From Spirochaetales bacterium (lineage in GTDB: Bacteria > Spirochaetota > Spirochaetia > Sphaerochaetales > Sphaerochaetaceae): 9,393 nucleotides of DNA. The stretch is from the NCBI GenBank assembly GCA_012519125.1, contig JAAYQY010000119.1, forward strand, positions 1 to 9,393, read 5' to 3'. Below the pieces are notes generated by a model. That model made no database searches and was not told the DNA's origin. It was given only the letters and a program-made list of their open reading frames with translations. Of the stretch, positions 1,440 through 8,091 are shown piece after piece. The position numbers and the translations under genes are program-made. Numbering within the stretch: position 1 is the stretch's first letter; each line of letters opens with the position of its first letter.

Positions 1440-1967
1440 ATGAGCGACCACCTGTTTTTCTGTGGCATCAAGCACAGCGGAAAATCGACGCTTGGGCATC
1501 TCTTTGCCCAAGCGAGAGGCTTGGTTTGGGCTGACCTTGATGAATTGGTCCTCCAGCAAGTCCCCTACCCGTCCATTCGCTCTTTCTATCGTGAGCGGGG
1601 CAAAGATGCGTTCATGCAGGAGGAAGTGAAAGCCCTCACCTCCTTTTTGAGAAACACTGACAGAAGAGCGGTGGTCAGCTTGGGTGGAGGAGCTGCAGAC
1701 AACCAAAATCTGATCGACCTGGTCAAGGCAAACGGGAAGCTCATTTACTTGGTGGTTCCCGAAGAAATTCTCTTCCAGCGCATCATGAGCGGGGGGATAC
1801 CCCCCTTCTTGGATGCTCACGATCCCAAGGCTTCTTTCAGTACCCTCTATGCCAAACGCCATGAGCGCTATGGAAACATCTGTGATTTCATGGTAGAATT
1901 GCCCAATTATCCGGATCTCCACGATACGGCAAGATTCCTTGTCGAAACGCTACAGAGCGAGGTATGA
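1440..1967 (+). CDS. aroK: Shikimate kinase, divergent active site
   Basis: Shikimate kinase phosphorylates shikimate at O3 with ATP, the fifth pathway step, in the cytoplasm. The product has 175 residues, normal for the family. Walker A is GIKHSGKST (residues 9-17), the acidic pair is D32/D34 in ADLDEL, the glycine motif is SLGGGA (80-85), and R140 in YAKRHERY fits the arginine before the conserved Tyr. Two usual arginines seem absent. The FR-x-x-E arginine that binds shikimate is Met59 (AFMQEE), and the lid motif RPLL reads PPFL (121-124). The lid codons 118-122 form a G6-ATA-C6 inverted repeat. The ATG is 2 nt after the preceding stop with no clear Shine-Dalgarno, suggesting translational coupling. 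Chorismate synthase follows after 1 nt, which strongly supports the assignment despite the changes. A kinase of altered specificity is the alternative. Confidence 0.85.
   Translation: MSDHLFFCGIKHSGKSTLGHLFAQARGLVWADLDELVLQQVPYPSIRSFYRERGKDAFMQEEVKALTSFLRNTDRRAVVSLGGGAADNQNLIDLVKANGKLIYLVVPEEILFQRIMSGGIPPFLDAHDPKASFSTLYAKRHERYGNICDFMVELPNYPDLHDTARFLVETLQSEV
1791..1805 (+). repeat. G6-ATA-C6 perfect inverted repeat inside aroK
   Basis: Six G, then ATA, then six C form a perfect inverted repeat with a 3-nt loop, in frame as Gly-Gly-Ile-Pro-Pro (residues 118-122, the lid loop of the kinase). In RNA it would be a short, very GC-rich hairpin. There is no U-tract after it, so it is not a standard intrinsic terminator, and three more genes follow on the same strand. 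Confidence 0.8.
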
Positions 1968-1968
1968 A

Positions 1969-3018
1969 ATGGGACACAACAGTTTCGGCACAGCATTTAC
2001 CATCACCACATTTGGTGAGTCGCATGGTGATGCCCTCGGGGTCGTCGTCGATGGCGTAGAACCAGGATTCCTTGTTGACCAGGAAGCTTTGCAACGGGAA
2101 ATGGACAGGCGCCGTCCCGGCTCAAACCCGACGGGGACCGAACGCAATGAAATAGACAAACTCTCCGTTCTCTCCGGCCTCTATGAAGGCTACACCACCG
2201 GTACGCCCATCGCCATGATTCTCTACAGCACCAATCAGCGCAGTGCAGACTACTCGCACCTCAAGGATGTCTTTCGTCCCGGACATGCTGACTGGACTTT
2301 TGAACAAAAGTATGGAAGACGGGACATTCGCGGCGGCGGCCGTTCCTCTGGCAGGGAGACCAGTGCTCGGGTGGCTGCCGGAGCCTTGGCAAAACAACTG
2401 CTCGCAAAGCGGGGAATCCAGATAACTGCCGGGACGGTACAGGTAGGTCCTATCAAGGCAGAGAAACGACATTGGGATGACCGGGAGCCTTTGCTCTCCT
2501 GCCCCGACCGTGAGGCTGCCCAGGCCATGGTCTCTCTGATCGAAGAGGTACGCCAGCAAAAGGACAGTATCGGAGGGGTGATCGAATGCCGTGTCCAAGG
2601 GCTTCCGGTCGGGTTGGGAGAACCGGTCTTCGGCAAGCTCGATGCCCTGCTCTCGCATGCGGTGATGAGCATCGGTGCGGTGAAAGGAATCCAGTTTGGT
2701 GACGGGTTTGCCTGTGCAACGATGCGGGGAAGCGAATGCAATGACCAGCGAACCAGTGAGGGCTTTCTCTCCAACCATGCTGGGGGCGTCCTTGGTGGGA
2801 TCTCCAGCGGACAGGAGCTCGTCCTGCAGGCAGCGATCAAGCCGACATCATCCATAGGAAAGCCCCAGTTGACGGTGAACAAGGCCAACGAGACGGTAAC
2901 CCTTGAAGTGCAAGGTCGGCATGACCCCTGCATCTGCGGCCGAGCGGTAGTGGTTGTGGAAGCCATGGTTGCCATTACGTTGCTCGATCTCTACTACACC
3001 GCCTTTGGAAGAGCATGA
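1969..3018 (+). CDS. aroC: Chorismate synthase
   Basis: Chorismate synthase converts 5-enolpyruvylshikimate-3-phosphate to chorismate, the last step of the shikimate pathway, using reduced FMN without net redox change. From ATG 1969 the product has 349 residues, close to the usual 350-390. Family blocks are FGESHG (15-20) near the N-terminus, RPGHADWT with His106 (103-110), the glycine/arginine-rich RGGGRSSGRETSARVAAGA (121-139), NHAGGVLGGISSGQ (269-282), and the C-terminal RHDPCICGRAVVVVEAMVA (317-335). An upstream ATG at 1939 is in frame but lies inside aroK and adds ten residues before the conserved MGHNSFG start, so 1969 is chosen. CGAGGT just upstream is the likely ribosome site, 1 nt after the aroK stop. 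The helicase start overlaps the aroC stop by 4 nt (ATGA). No key residue is seen to be missing. Confidence 0.97.
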   Translation: MGHNSFGTAFTITTFGESHGDALGVVVDGVEPGFLVDQEALQREMDRRRPGSNPTGTERNEIDKLSVLSGLYEGYTTGTPIAMILYSTNQRSADYSHLKDVFRPGHADWTFEQKYGRRDIRGGGRSSGRETSARVAAGALAKQLLAKRGIQITAGTVQVGPIKAEKRHWDDREPLLSCPDREAAQAMVSLIEEVRQQKDSIGGVIECRVQGLPVGLGEPVFGKLDALLSHAVMSIGAVKGIQFGDGFACATMRGSECNDQRTSEGFLSNHAGGVLGGISSGQELVLQAAIKPTSSIGKPQLTVNKANETVTLEVQGRHDPCICGRAVVVVEAMVAITLLDLYYTAFGRA

Positions 3019-4679
3019 TGCAAGATACCCCCCTGATCGTCCAAAGTGACAAGACACTGCTTTTGGATGTCCACCATCCGCGAAGCGAGGAGTGCCGGGC
3101 GGATTTGGTCCGCTTTTGCGAGCTTATCAAAAGCCCCGAGCATATGCATACCTATACGCTCAGCGCCATCTCGTTGTGGAACGCCGCAGCAAGTGGAATC
3201 AAGTTGGAAACCATCCTTGACAGGCTTACCTACTGGAGCAAATTCCCTATCGCCGAGAGTGTCTACTTCTATGTGAAAGATATGGCTTCCCGGTGGGGCA
3301 AGGTCAGGCTTACCGAAAGTGACGACCCTCGCTACTACCGACTCGAAGTTGACAGTGAACGCATCAAAAGCGAATTGAGCCAGCGACGAGCGCTCTCCAA
3401 GCTTCTCGTGCTCAAGGATAGCCGAACGTTCCTGCTCGAGACCTATGCCAGAGGAGAAGTGAAGCTTCAGCTGATCAAGATTGGTTACCCTGTCGACGAC
3501 CGCATCCGCCTCTCGGCAGGACCTCACGTGCCGCTTGCCCTGAGAAAGCAAACCCGATCAGGCAAGGACTTTGTCGTAAGACCATACCAAAAGATGTCAG
3601 CAGACGCCCTGCTGGGCGATTTGGGTCCAGGTTGCGGCTTTGGTACCATCGTGCTTCCCTGTGGGTCCGGCAAAACGGTGGTGGGCATGGAGATCATGCA
3701 AAGATTGGCTACGCGGACACTGGTGGTAACCACCAACGTTGCAGCCGTGCACCAGTGGATGCAGGAGATTTTGGACAAGACCGACCTGACGGAAGAGCAA
3801 GTCGGAGAGTATACCGGTGAACGCAAGGACCCCAGAGAGATCACCGTCTGCACCTACCAGGTGCTCACCTACCGACCTGACAAGGAGGGCCCATTTCCTC
3901 ATCTCGATCTTTTGACCAAGGGCAACTGGGGACTCATCATCTATGATGAGGTGCATATGCTTCCAGCCCCGGTCTTCAAGATCACTGCAGAACTGCAGGC
4001 TGTCTACCGGGTAGGACTCACCGCCACCTTGGTGCGTGAGGACGGGAGGGAAGACGAGGTTTTCAGCCTTGTGGGACCCAAGCGATTCGATGTGCCCTGG
4101 AACGAACTGCAACAGCAGGGATTCATTGCCGAGGCGTACTGCCATGAGATCCGCATTGACTTGCCCAAGGAGTTGGAAATCCCCTATGCACTGGGAACAA
4201 AACGGGAGAAGTACCGGATGGCCAGCGAGAACCCGCTCAAGCTGGAGGTGGTGAAGGAGTTGGTCAATCGGCACCCTGATGATTTCATCCTGATCATCGG
4301 TCAATATCTTGATCAGCTGAAGCACATTGCAGATGCTTTCAAGCTTCCCATCATTACCGGCAGCACCCCCAACGCAAAACGGGAGGAGCTCTATCGTGCT
4401 TTCAGGGACGGTTCCACCAGAATCCTGGTCGTGAGCAAAGTTGCCAACTTTGCCATCGATCTTCCTGATGCCTCGGTGGCAATCCAGGTATCTGGTACGT
4501 TCGGCTCACGAAGTGAAGAGGCACAGAGGTTGGGAAGAATCCTCAGGCCGAAGAATCGCTCAAGTTTCTTCTACTCGGTAGTCACACGCTACTCCAATGA
4601 GGAAGAGTTCGCTGCCAACCGACAAAAGTTCCTTGCAGAGCAAGGGTACTCGTATGAGATTGAGGTATGGAACAATTGA
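3015..4679 (+). CDS. xpb: XPB/ERCC3-type superfamily 2 DNA helicase
   Basis: XPB is a 3'-to-5' helicase/translocase. In eukaryotes it is part of TFIIH, in transcription start and nucleotide excision repair; bacterial and archaeal versions are ATP-dependent DNA unwinding enzymes. The product has 554 residues. The N-terminal module (about 5-130) holds LIVQSDKTLLLDVH (7-20) and PEHMHTYTLSAISLWNAA (41-58). Motor motifs are PCGSGKT (215-221, Walker A), DEVH (311-314, Walker B), LTATLVRED (335-343) with the RED triplet typical of XPB, VSKVANFAIDLPDA (473-486) and QRLGRILRP (504-512, arginine fingers). The usual bacterial XPB length is about 540-570, so it looks complete. The start overlaps the aroC stop by 4 nt, with a second ATG at 3018 possible. 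It overlaps the next gene by 13 nt. No Bax1-type nuclease gene is visible. Confidence 0.95.
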   Translation: MMQDTPLIVQSDKTLLLDVHHPRSEECRADLVRFCELIKSPEHMHTYTLSAISLWNAAASGIKLETILDRLTYWSKFPIAESVYFYVKDMASRWGKVRLTESDDPRYYRLEVDSERIKSELSQRRALSKLLVLKDSRTFLLETYARGEVKLQLIKIGYPVDDRIRLSAGPHVPLALRKQTRSGKDFVVRPYQKMSADALLGDLGPGCGFGTIVLPCGSGKTVVGMEIMQRLATRTLVVTTNVAAVHQWMQEILDKTDLTEEQVGEYTGERKDPREITVCTYQVLTYRPDKEGPFPHLDLLTKGNWGLIIYDEVHMLPAPVFKITAELQAVYRVGLTATLVREDGREDEVFSLVGPKRFDVPWNELQQQGFIAEAYCHEIRIDLPKELEIPYALGTKREKYRMASENPLKLEVVKELVNRHPDDFILIIGQYLDQLKHIADAFKLPIITGSTPNAKREELYRAFRDGSTRILVVSKVANFAIDLPDASVAIQVSGTFGSRSEEAQRLGRILRPKNRSSFFYSVVTRYSNEEEFAANRQKFLAEQGYSYEIEVWNN

Positions 4680-6556
4680 ATGAGCAAGCACAAGAGTCGT
4701 TCAAGACACTGATCAGCCGGTACAGCGAAGACAACTACTTTTTTCTCGTACGCAATTACCTGGGACTGGTAAGCACTCCGTTCCACAAGCCACAGCTAAC
4801 CGGTCGACTCTGCACATTCTTCTGCCAGAAACACATCCAGGAGAACATGCTCGCTATGCTGGATGAAATGGATCTGGTGATCCTCAGTCTTATCCAGGTG
4901 ACCGGATCTGTACGCGCAGAGGATGTGACCAGACTTTTGAAGAGTCGATGGAGTTATGGCACCCTGCTCAGGCGAGTGTCCAACCTCCAGCAGAGGATGG
5001 TATTGCTCAACAACAACGGCTATCTGGTATGCAATCCTTTGATCGAGGAGCAATTGTCGGAATGTACATCATTGACTCCTCTGTTCGGAGAACATGCACA
5101 TGCATGCAGAAATTCTCCTTACTGCAGTACAGAGTTTCTTCGCTCATTCTTGAGTCTGATCCGCAAGGAAGGGAAAATCGCCTTCCGTGAAGAGTACCAG
5201 CGTCACTTTCCCACCTTTGCACCTGAACCGTTGGAGCAACTGTTCAACGCGTTGGGCAAAGCATTGCTTTCCCTCTGTGTACTTGAGGGAGAGAAGCATG
5301 TCCAGATCAATGACCAGAAGGCCTCTGCACTGCTTACCCTCAATGACAGGCAGCTGCTCTGCTTGCTGCTCTGCCATCAGCTGGGGTTGGAGAATATGGC
5401 GTTCGCTTTCGACCTGCTCGCAATTCTGGGAATAATCGGAAGCTTGGATACGAACTCACTGAAACTGCTCATAGGATCGCTGGCGGTGAAACACCACTTG
5501 GAAAGTGCTCCTTCCCTCCTCTCCGAACTCTCTACGTGGGGTGTCATCTCCCTTGATGAGGTCTGGCATGTCTCTGCCCTCGATACGGATCACCCACACA
5601 GTGGCCTCTTGGTGGACAGTGACCAAACCATCAGCTATGAGGGAACCTGTCTGCCTGATGACATGCTTTACAGAATTGCTGAGATTGAGGTTCTTGACCA
5701 TCAGAAGCGTTATCGTGTGACCAAGGAGAGTTTTGTCTTGGCGCTGGATTCAGGACTTACCTTCAATGAAATTGAACACTACCTGCATACCAACAGCCGC
5801 GCATCCTCTGCCACAACGCTTCTCAAACAGCTCAGCTTGCTGCATGAGCGGTATCGGCGCATAGCCATCTATGATGCGCTGATACTCAGTTGCGATGAGC
5901 GCACAGCCAATCTCTTGACCAATCTCCCCTCACTGAAGGAACACGTGCTCTCCTCTCTCAGTCCCACCATTTTTCTTATGCGCCGTGATACGGAGGAGTT
6001 GTGGAGGCAGATACTGGTTGACTCGGGCCAATTGCTTGGCTCGACCAAGCGCCATGAGCACATAGAGGTCAAACGACCTGTGGAGAATCCTCTCTTCACC
6101 CAAATGCTGGAGAATGCTCGTACCTGTGCAGAGCCTTCACTGCCCCCCTTGGTCGGGTCCAAGCCAAGCGCCTTCCTCGATAAGCGGTTGCTGGAAGCAA
6201 TCCAAACAGCCAAGCTTACCGATGAACAACGCTCAGACCTCGAGCATCGCTATCATGCCAGAATGATTTTGACAAAGGAACAGATAGTTGCTCAGGTGCT
6301 GAACACCGTTTTGGAAGCAGGGGGGTTCGATTACCAGGGAAAAGTCAGCCTTTGCAGGCAGGCTTCAGGAAAAACAAACATCGCCCTCGAATTGCAACTA
6401 ACCGACCAAGAACTGGTTGTCCAGGCCTTGGAGGTTGCCTATACGCCGCAGAAAGAGGCCCTGCTGAAGGCGGCAGTGATGCCGACGATGGAAGTGAAAA
6501 TCATTCCCGTCAGCAAAATATTCTTGGTTCGTTTGGTGAGGATCCACCTCGCCTGA
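4667..6556 (+). CDS. XPB-partner protein with helicase-associated (Helicase_C_3 / XPB N-terminal-like) domain
   Basis: This 629-residue protein has no Walker A or DEAD/DEAH motif, so it is not itself a motor. Its N-terminal half (about 1-300) is mostly helical by composition, with leucine-rich stretches such as 192-262, and could hold winged-helix repeats; this is inference. Residues 313-440 resemble the XPB N-terminal module. LLVDSDQT (314-321) matches LIVQSDKT of the helicase (7-14), and 347-378 aligns without gaps to helicase 45-76, with 8 identities including Tyr, Ser, Ala, Ser-Gly, Ile, Leu and Ser. A third part (about 520-629) is a compact unassigned domain. Actinobacteria also place a protein with this domain beside XPB, as recalled for M. 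tuberculosis Rv0862c/Rv0861c. The start lies inside the helicase gene (13-nt overlap) with GAGG only 1 nt before it, pointing to coupling; the next in-frame Met is residue 61. It probably acts with the helicase, but its function is unproven. Confidence 0.85.
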   Translation: MEQLNEQAQESFKTLISRYSEDNYFFLVRNYLGLVSTPFHKPQLTGRLCTFFCQKHIQENMLAMLDEMDLVILSLIQVTGSVRAEDVTRLLKSRWSYGTLLRRVSNLQQRMVLLNNNGYLVCNPLIEEQLSECTSLTPLFGEHAHACRNSPYCSTEFLRSFLSLIRKEGKIAFREEYQRHFPTFAPEPLEQLFNALGKALLSLCVLEGEKHVQINDQKASALLTLNDRQLLCLLLCHQLGLENMAFAFDLLAILGIIGSLDTNSLKLLIGSLAVKHHLESAPSLLSELSTWGVISLDEVWHVSALDTDHPHSGLLVDSDQTISYEGTCLPDDMLYRIAEIEVLDHQKRYRVTKESFVLALDSGLTFNEIEHYLHTNSRASSATTLLKQLSLLHERYRRIAIYDALILSCDERTANLLTNLPSLKEHVLSSLSPTIFLMRRDTEELWRQILVDSGQLLGSTKRHEHIEVKRPVENPLFTQMLENARTCAEPSLPPLVGSKPSAFLDKRLLEAIQTAKLTDEQRSDLEHRYHARMILTKEQIVAQVLNTVLEAGGFDYQGKVSLCRQASGKTNIALELQLTDQELVVQALEVAYTPQKEALLKAAVMPTMEVKIIPVSKIFLVRLVRIHLA

Positions 6557-6560
6557 TCAG
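6553..6560. other. Abutting convergent stop codons within the palindrome CTGATCAG
   Basis: The plus-strand stop TGA (6554-6556) is followed immediately by TCA (6557-6559), which is the minus-strand stop of aroDE. Together they form an 8-bp palindrome. There are no intergenic bases, and no GC stem with a U-tract is seen on either strand nearby, so transcripts from both sides probably run into the opposing gene unless stopped by Rho. Confidence 0.9.
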
Positions 6561-8041
6561 AGGTCTGCCTGAATCCAGTGCGGGTAGTGATAGCCGGTGA
6601 AGGCTTCGAACTGAAGCTTGCCTTGTTCCATCAACATCTGTGAACCGTTGACTATCCGGCACCCGGCATCCTTGGCCTTCTTCAGAAAGACCGTTTCCTT
6701 CGGTTCATAGACCAGCTCATAGGCAATCTCATTTCCGGTGAAAGAGAAGGAAGGACAGGGATCCATCGAGCTCAGTTCCCCCATTCCCACACTGGTGGTC
6801 TGTACCACCAAATCTGCTGCCCCGTTGTAGAGGTGTCCTCTCTCAAGGGTGTCATAGTTGCTCATCGTCTCAGAGGCCAGTGAGCGAGCATGCTCCTGGC
6901 TACGGTTGAGGATGGTTACCTTCACCCCATGGTTGTGCAGAGCCCAGACTACTGCCCGACTGGCACCTCCGGCTCCAATGACCAGTGCATGACGGATTGC
7001 TCCTTTGCCGATCTCCTCAGAAATCGGAGCCAGAAAGCCGTAGTAATCGGTATTCATTCCCTTCCACATGTTCTGGATGCGGACAACCGTATTGCACGAT
7101 CCTATCTGTTTCACCTCACGGGTGATACGGCCCAGATAGGGTTGCACGCTTCGTTTGTGGGGAACGGTGACCGAAAAGCCATGAATCTGGAGCATCTCAG
7201 CCAACTTGAAGAAGGCCCGTACCGAGTCCACCAAAAACGGAACATAGACAGCGTTGTAGCGGATCGCTTCAAACCCAGGGTTATGGATTTTCGGGCTTGC
7301 CGTATGATACACAGGATTGCCGATGATGCCGAAGATGTGAGTCTTCTCATCGAGCTTGTCAGCGCGGTACAGCGTACTCATAGCCTGTGCTCCCACATGG
7401 CCGGGAGCGGCCTGACTGTCTGAACAGAAGCTGAGAAGACTCCCGCACTTCTTGTACAGGATACGGGTACAGATGCCAAACTCTCCCATGCCGATGATAA
7501 TCTTCTCCTGTACATCGGAAAGTTCTTGTTGTACGCGGAAAAGCGTGATGATGTCCATGAGATTGTTCGGGGTGACTGCAACCTTGGGGATGTCACCTTT
7601 TGCAGCAAGCTTGCTGATTCTTCCAAAGATATCGGCAGGAACACACTCAAAATTGTGGTAGGATCGGATGATCTTAATTCCGCGCTGTCGCAGTGAGACT
7701 TCCATATCCACTTTTTGCTCAAAGAGCGGGTCCTTGAATTTCAGATCCCCTTTCTTCACATCATCTTCGATATCCACATAGGCGAAATCTCCCTTGCTTG
7801 CCTCATACAGCAATTGCAGTCGCTGTTTCTCGGCCAACGTGCACTTGCCCCCATCGATTGTGCGGCGAAGGGTAAGTATAACCGGGAGATCTACGGTTGA
7901 GGGAAAGGAAGAAGCAATTTTCTGTTCATCGGGATGCAGATGGTCAAGACGAAGCTCAGCGAGGGAGATCCACGTTCGGTTGCGTTCCACCAGAGCCCGG
8001 TTCTCCTCCAAAGTGGAGCCGGTAAGAGTAAGGCAAAGCAC
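6557..8041 (-). CDS. aroDE: Bifunctional 3-dehydroquinate dehydratase (type I) / shikimate dehydrogenase
   Basis: This two-domain enzyme carries steps 3 and 4 of the shikimate pathway: dehydroquinate to dehydroshikimate, then NADPH reduction to shikimate. The product has 494 residues. The dehydratase half (about 1-220) shows ELRLDHL (29-35), the catalytic His129 in SYHNFE, and the Schiff-base Lys153 in DIPKVAVTP. The dehydrogenase half (about 234-494) shows GNPVYHTASPKIHN (241-254), SVTVPHK with catalytic Lys296, GSCNTVV (314-320), NTD with Asp332, the NADP loop GAGGASRA (356-363), NRS, and QTTSVGM (414-420). The start is GTG at 8041, because AGGAGGT lies 5 nt upstream. The open frame extends to a GTG at 8080, but that adds 13 unconserved residues and would translate the ribosome site. 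Thr246 replaces the first Ser of the usual S-x-S, and GFSVT replaces the common G-x-NVT. It has its own promoter and is read against the aroK-aroC operon. Confidence 0.96.
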   Translation of the reverse strand: MLCLTLTGSTLEENRALVERNRTWISLAELRLDHLHPDEQKIASSFPSTVDLPVILTLRRTIDGGKCTLAEKQRLQLLYEASKGDFAYVDIEDDVKKGDLKFKDPLFEQKVDMEVSLRQRGIKIIRSYHNFECVPADIFGRISKLAAKGDIPKVAVTPNNLMDIITLFRVQQELSDVQEKIIIGMGEFGICTRILYKKCGSLLSFCSDSQAAPGHVGAQAMSTLYRADKLDEKTHIFGIIGNPVYHTASPKIHNPGFEAIRYNAVYVPFLVDSVRAFFKLAEMLQIHGFSVTVPHKRSVQPYLGRITREVKQIGSCNTVVRIQNMWKGMNTDYYGFLAPISEEIGKGAIRHALVIGAGGASRAVVWALHNHGVKVTILNRSQEHARSLASETMSNYDTLERGHLYNGAADLVVQTTSVGMGELSSMDPCPSFSFTGNEIAYELVYEPKETVFLKKAKDAGCRIVNGSQMLMEQGKLQFEAFTGYHYPHWIQADL

Positions 8042-8046
8042 TGTAG

Positions 8047-8053
8047 ACCTCCT
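8047..8053 (-). promoter_or_regulatory. Ribosome binding site deciding the aroDE start
   Basis: The minus strand reads AGGAGGT, a full Shine-Dalgarno match, ending 5 nt before GTG at 8041. It lies downstream of the more distal GTG at 8080, which has no comparable site, so translation should begin at 8041. Confidence 0.88.
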
Positions 8054-8075
8054 GAAATCGGGTGGATTGTCACCG

Positions 8076-8091
8076 AACACACGCTTGTGTT
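8076..8091. promoter_or_regulatory. 16-bp inverted repeat at the aroDE transcription start
   Basis: AACACA-CGCT-TGTGTT on the plus strand has perfect 6-bp arms around a 4-nt centre. The predicted aroDE start of transcription is about 8091, so the repeat would occupy about +1 to +16. It may be a DNA operator, or a 5'-terminal hairpin in the mRNA that guards against decay. It also lies upstream of the divergent ABC-F gene and could affect both. Confidence 0.45.

Follow-up and report, generated by a model that had tools for sequence, protein, structure and literature searches.

The question raised by this locus is whether a bacterial XPB family DNA motor has a p52 of its own. In TFIIH, as described in PMC6422496, XPB is recruited through a pseudo-symmetric dimer of its N-terminal domain with the clutch of p52, which has the same fold. 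The window analysed here –the whole stretch of 9,393 nucleotides from the Spirochaetales bacterium assembly GCA_012519125.1, contig JAAYQY010000119.1– is spirochaetal, with Sphaerochaeta among its close relatives. It carries an XPB gene (814 bits against NF045503 'DNA repair helicase XPB', cut-off 610), followed by an overlapping gene whose product we call the partner. The original prediction, made from the letters alone, saw in these two genes a bacterial pair resembling XPB and p52. We confirmed its observation and found support for this reading: the genes overlap, the proteins have a homologous module, the predicted fold of the partner is p52-like over residues 20-457, and both genes are retained together. 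We consider it quite probable that the pair consists of an XPB motor and a partner with a predicted p52 fold and an added WYL-like barrel, which would hold the motor via paired N-terminal modules.

The overlap of 13 nucleotides was as originally described, and our recount of residue identities agreed with the first one: 5/8 between partner 314-321 (LLVDSDQT) and helicase 7-14 (LIVQSDKT), and 8/32 between partner 347-378 and helicase 45-76. By themselves these counts prove nothing, since 200/200 shuffles of the partner reached at least 5/8 and at least 8/32 somewhere against the helicase; for partner 301-440 against helicase 1-140 alone, 8/32 was reached by 168/200 shuffles. As proof of homology we discarded the counts, which are right yet at chance level alone, and BLASTP found no match between partner and helicase in the module region (best E 0.79, elsewhere). 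PF13625 (Pfam Helicase_C_3, the XPB N-terminal module) matches the helicase and also the partner, the latter at residues 314-424 with 35.5 bits against a cut-off of 34.2, and it matches 61/61 partner-family members at E ≤ 0.1. In a profile-profile comparison, 92 columns of the partner module (28 sequences) and the helicase module (39 sequences) aligned with a probability of 97.1% and E 6.2e-11. Judged from these profiles, the two modules are homologous, in line with the claim that the partner carries a copy of the helicase's N-terminal module.

At the level of the predicted fold, we obtained an AlphaFold2 model of the partner with a pLDDT of 90.2 and a pTM of 0.84. Foldseek against the PDB returned 20 matches at E ≤ 0.001, with a best value of 1.7e-8. 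We read every one of these TFIIH chains as p52/Tfb2; they outrank every XPB chain and align over 307-518 columns. VIA alignments to near-complete p52 chains begin at model residues 20 to 64 and extend to 452-457, equivalent to human p52 458-462. By both methods, the predicted domain order is that of p52: winged helices, clutch, C-terminal domain. The N-terminal region (~20-300) aligns with the N-terminal and first middle domains of p52, so the model agrees with the earlier proposal that this half is akin to the p52 winged-helix repeats; residues ~54-141 also match single MarR-type winged-helix proteins by VIA. The barrel at the C-terminus is WYL-like by fold (VIA). Searched alone with HMMER, the C-terminal module of the partner gave no p8 or p52 match. 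No nuclease family was found in the partner by Pfam or among the listed PDB fold matches, although a missing match does not exclude one.

Sequence profiles also pointed to p52. The best PDB match of the partner-family profile (61 sequences) was yeast Tfb2 (E 4.5e-4); at lower ranks of the same search came XPB (best E 1.5e-3) and human p52 (E 0.05), whose alignment begins ahead of the clutch. We counted 10/24 identical residues in the printed alignment between yeast Tfb2 (ITRESIRRALTNGITADQIIAYLE) and window partner 351-374 (VTKESFVLALDSGLTFNEIEHYLH). With a clutch-only profile, Tfb2 and XPB matched equally, both at E 1.6e-4. The helicase-module profile A9 retrieved eukaryotic XPB from the PDB with E between 3e-20 and 1e-16, and not one p52 chain up to E 1; since it finds XPB only, the partner's module is the one of the two that carries the p52 affinity. 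The resemblance to p52 suggested at the outset thus appears in both comparisons, with p52/Tfb2 chains found by fold and Tfb2 as best PDB match by sequence profile.

Regarding linkage, we found 295 XPB relatives and kept the best 80 as loci, so this sample leans to the window's close kin. The partner lies directly downstream of XPB in 77/80 loci, and the other three (L029, L049, L064) have a full-length partner elsewhere in the genome. Wide unlinking of the two genes in relatives, named in the original prediction as evidence against itself, was not what these loci displayed. By eye, the same unrelated gene follows XPB in L029 and L049. A wider draw covered 392 genomes of the phylum, with a listing that favours the window's kin: among the matches listed, coordinates of both genes were given in 90, being adjacent on the same strand in 78 and apart in 12. 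Five loci from distant families are linked (L122, L124-L127). PF13625 is present in 318/392 genomes, mostly as two matches, and absent in 74; family f5, which has small genomes, accounts for 17 of the 20 of these that were listed. A repeat homologue search with alignment added only P0035, a protein of 334 amino acids identical to part of the window partner. Four long open frames (1109-1309 amino acids; L139-L142) looked like XPB-partner fusions and were rejected: in each, the frame of an ordinary partner continues upstream without a stop, through the XPB gene but out of its frame. Single in-frame stop codons occur in strong partner matches of G273, G315, G182, G282, G372, and G339, and could be sequencing error, recoding or decay.

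Similar pairs were found outside spirochaetes. A search of plasmid records retrieved XPB relatives in 172, and of these we inspected two haloarchaeal loci and seven of the ten top-ranked places. XPB is followed by the partner with a 14-nucleotide overlap in Paenibacillus, and by a gene of ~100 amino acids and then the partner in three Deinococcus. The partner stands immediately upstream of XPB in Arthrobacter and ~3.8 kilobases upstream in Nonomuraea, where it is cut by the locus end and carries Pfam WYL. In Gloeocapsopsis, a partner-like gene comes first and XPB follows after a 1-nucleotide gap. All seven partners have a PF13625 match, none weaker than E 2e-7, and in six it exceeds the cut-off. 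The family profile A2 matches six of the seven plasmid partners and not that of Gloeocapsopsis at E ≤ 0.01; the latter is assigned by its position beside XPB and a sub-cut-off PF13625 match (31.5 bits, E 2e-7). By eye, this protein ends after the p8-like module, with no WYL region. The XPB genes of the two haloarchaeal plasmids –two loci only– have no helicase-associated neighbour annotated.

The small Deinococcus genes between XPB and partner (L113:6741-7070, L118:6737-7084, L119:6744-7043) encode a protein that starts with an AT-hook-like stretch and has a p8/Tfb5-like core. We found 26 proteins of this family, and 8/8 with an organism name are from Deinococcus. Foldseek placed p8/Tfb5 chains at ranks 1, 2, 3, and 5 (best E 0.024, 25% identity), while VIA gave a Z of 7.0 against 6.7 for an unrelated fold, a tie obtained from a modest model. 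By hhalign, the C-terminal module of the partner matched the small protein with a probability of 50% and E 1.6e-4. In a PDB search with the small family, Tfb5 chains scored no better than E 0.79-1.2, and chance matches to designed barrels ranked above them. We regard the p8/Tfb5 likeness of the modelled protein as suggestive. For spirochaetes we rejected p8/Tfb5: 24/149 genomes had a match at E ≤ 0.1, none over the cut-off, and ~15 were expected by chance. Sub-cut-off Tfb5 profile matches fall at the C-terminal end of the partner in five genomes of genus g76, which, being closely related, we count as roughly a single event. In this genus (family f27; L148, L150-L153, L155), the partner ends right after the p8-like module and has no WYL-like barrel.

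Some results weigh against reading the partner as the p52 of XPB. No match of the Pfam Tfb2 model (PF03849) in 296 genomes of the phylum exceeds the curated cut-off; 23 of these genomes have a match at E ≤ 0.01, when ~3 were expected by chance. Moreover, the two genes are unlinked, on different contigs in all cases, in the distant relatives G004 and G184 and in five genus g76 genomes. Family f29 has XPB without a second PF13625 in 5/5 genomes, and two of its loci (L144, L145) have no partner-like neighbour of XPB. The window partner itself has no PF03849 match at E ≤ 1. We looked at 14 of the 23 matches: the ten best are all in partner-family genes, and three further ones (G294, G261, G266) are inside partner coordinates. 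One in a protein of 1047 amino acids (G009, L130), considered as an XPB-partner fusion, reads instead as an enzyme of another kind, which by eye resembles a restriction-modification protein. Because no match passes the cut-off, we treat the partner as a distant relative, use the term p52-like for it and do not assign it to the Tfb2 family. The Tfb4/p34 model had no match in the window's genome, but it was silent in 14/14 controls too.

The missing matches over the Tfb2 cut-off also fit another explanation, in which the partner is a bacterial regulator made of a duplicated XPB N-terminal module joined to winged helices, with a parallel likeness to p52; it may still bind XPB. Winged helices are common, and the clutch profile matches XPB and Tfb2 equally, as this explanation would have it. 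However, a duplicated XPB module does not lead one to expect 20 p52-read chains above any XPB chain in Foldseek, an alignment that runs beyond the clutch into the p52 C-terminal domain, or a p52 affinity that belongs to the partner's module when the helicase-module profile finds XPB only. We judge it unlikely.

The barrel raises a second alternative, that of a WYL-type partner acting alone, as a transcription regulator or as a sensor of single-stranded DNA, and lying beside XPB by operon history. This agrees with the fold of the barrel, with the Pfam WYL of the Nonomuraea homologue and with the genomes in which the genes are unlinked; yet the genomes of all 80 best XPB loci retain the partner, including the three with the genes apart, and the partners of g76 and, by eye, of Gloeocapsopsis lack the WYL region, which makes it very improbable. 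An anti-phage or mobile defence module, as the match of the helicase core (window 3015-4679) to PADLOC PbeA (E 6e-17) and the pairs on large plasmids could suggest, is hardly credible for a pair that sits between aro genes, whose partner goes unmatched in PADLOC at E ≤ 0.01 and whose PF13625 is so widespread in the phylum, unlike patchy defence genes.

If the pair is an XPB motor with a p52-like clamp, its mechanism can be sketched by analogy with TFIIH. The N-terminal modules of partner and XPB would pair face to face, as those of XPB and p52 do there; since the window pair has the parts that dock in TFIIH, an identical mode of docking is the simplest interpretation. The p52-like body would clamp the motor and tune its ATPase, making XPB a regulated double-strand DNA translocase that may open or clear DNA. 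In TFIIH, p52 and p8 are described to stimulate the XPB ATPase while capping its DNA-stimulated maximum (PMC7708078). The winged helices may bind DNA or another protein, and the WYL-like barrel could sense single-stranded DNA in the manner of CapW and DriD. The setting would most likely be repair or stalled transcription, beside UvrABC and Mfd; UvrB and Mfd are both present in the window's genome, and thus the pair does not replace the standard bacterial systems. Thin hints from mycobacteria point to transcription stress. In Mycobacterium tuberculosis, loss of ercc3 (XPB) raised rifampin killing under starvation according to PMC10534295, which also cites a knock-down study with no effect for ercc3, and in M. 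smegmatis both XPB and RpoC were on the list of proteins pulled down with MSMEG_2731 (PMC3348880).

Compared with XPB-p52(-p8) of TFIIH (Ssl2-Tfb2-Tfb5 in yeast), the window pair has the same XPB N-terminal module, a homologous module in the partner and, as predicted, the p52 domain order. It differs in being bacterial, in its two overlapping genes with no room for a p8 gene between them, in the extra WYL-like barrel and in a sequence below the Tfb2 cut-off. Archaeal XPB-Bax1 also couples XPB to one dedicated partner (PMC7672443). Bax1 is described as a nuclease with a Cas2-like domain that contacts the thumb and second helicase domain of XPB, whereas the window partner matches p52 and no nuclease family by Pfam. 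The 'helicase-associated domain-containing protein' beside XPB in Paenibacillus and Deinococcus shares the neighbourhood and, in homologues, PF13625; Mycobacterium Rv0862c, recorded as hypothetical beside ercc3 in PMC2590607, is likened to the partner by gene neighbourhood alone. Unlike the reading proposed here, these neighbours are annotated by domain or as hypothetical, with no p52 link in the annotations seen. Relatives of the partner, where named, are likewise hypothetical, one source uses the domain name 'Helicase XPB/', and the Pfam family PF27388 is listed for these proteins. The WYL proteins PafBC, CapW, DriD, and BrxR have a C-terminal barrel of similar predicted fold, but the window barrel gives no Pfam WYL match. 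To our knowledge, all four regulate transcription and have neither a p52-like body nor PF13625.

The features of the locus are collected in Table 1. The pair is embedded in an aromatic-amino-acid cluster (window 1440-3018 and 6557-8080). Upstream, with a 4-nucleotide overlap with XPB, are shikimate kinase and chorismate synthase, and a 3-dehydroquinase/shikimate dehydrogenase fusion lies downstream, convergent on the opposite strand.

Table 1. Features of the XPB-partner locus, in window positions.
Feature	Position	Strand	Basis
XPB family DNA motor, 554 amino acids	3015..4679	+	NCBIfam NF045503; PF16203, PF04851, PF13625
XPB N-terminal docking module, residues 7-132	3033..3410	+	PF13625, 89.9 bits; profile A9 match to eukaryotic XPB
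Gene-gene overlap, 13 nucleotides	4667..4679	+	
p52/Tfb2-like partner, 629 amino acids	4667..6556	+	AlphaFold2 model and Foldseek
Helical, winged-helix-bearing N-terminal region of partner, ~residues 20-300	4724..5566	+	VIA alignments of model
Putative XPB-docking 'clutch' module of partner, residues 310-399	5594..5863	+	
Beta-alpha-beta-alpha module of partner resembling p52 C-terminal/p8 domain, residues 398-457	5858..6037	+	DSSP of model; VIA p52 alignments
WYL-like beta-barrel at partner C-terminus, residues 554-629, not in p52	6326..6553	+	

XPB held by p52 is known from eukaryotes; the bacterial form beside XPB, with its WYL-like barrel, appears to be new. A 2012 paper states that bacterial p52 homologs 'have not been found', and a bacterial p52 is not described in the open literature that we searched, which excluded preprints and most subscription papers; this absence is no proof. 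It is likely that bacteria own a cousin of TFIIH's core. More tentatively, and somewhat short of an even chance in our view, the XPB-p52-p8 core may predate eukaryotes: an operon-borne cousin in at least four bacterial phyla –XPB with a p52-like clamp, and a stand-alone p8-like subunit in Deinococcus– would sense single-stranded DNA and open DNA as a translocase, and from such a module the XPB end of TFIIH would have been built. If the neighbour is indeed XPB's p52, earlier work on bacterial XPB alone missed its clamp, and a minimal two-protein version of the TFIIH motor end is open to study. The pair also makes a long-standing question testable, the bacterial origin of TFIIH's XPB module.
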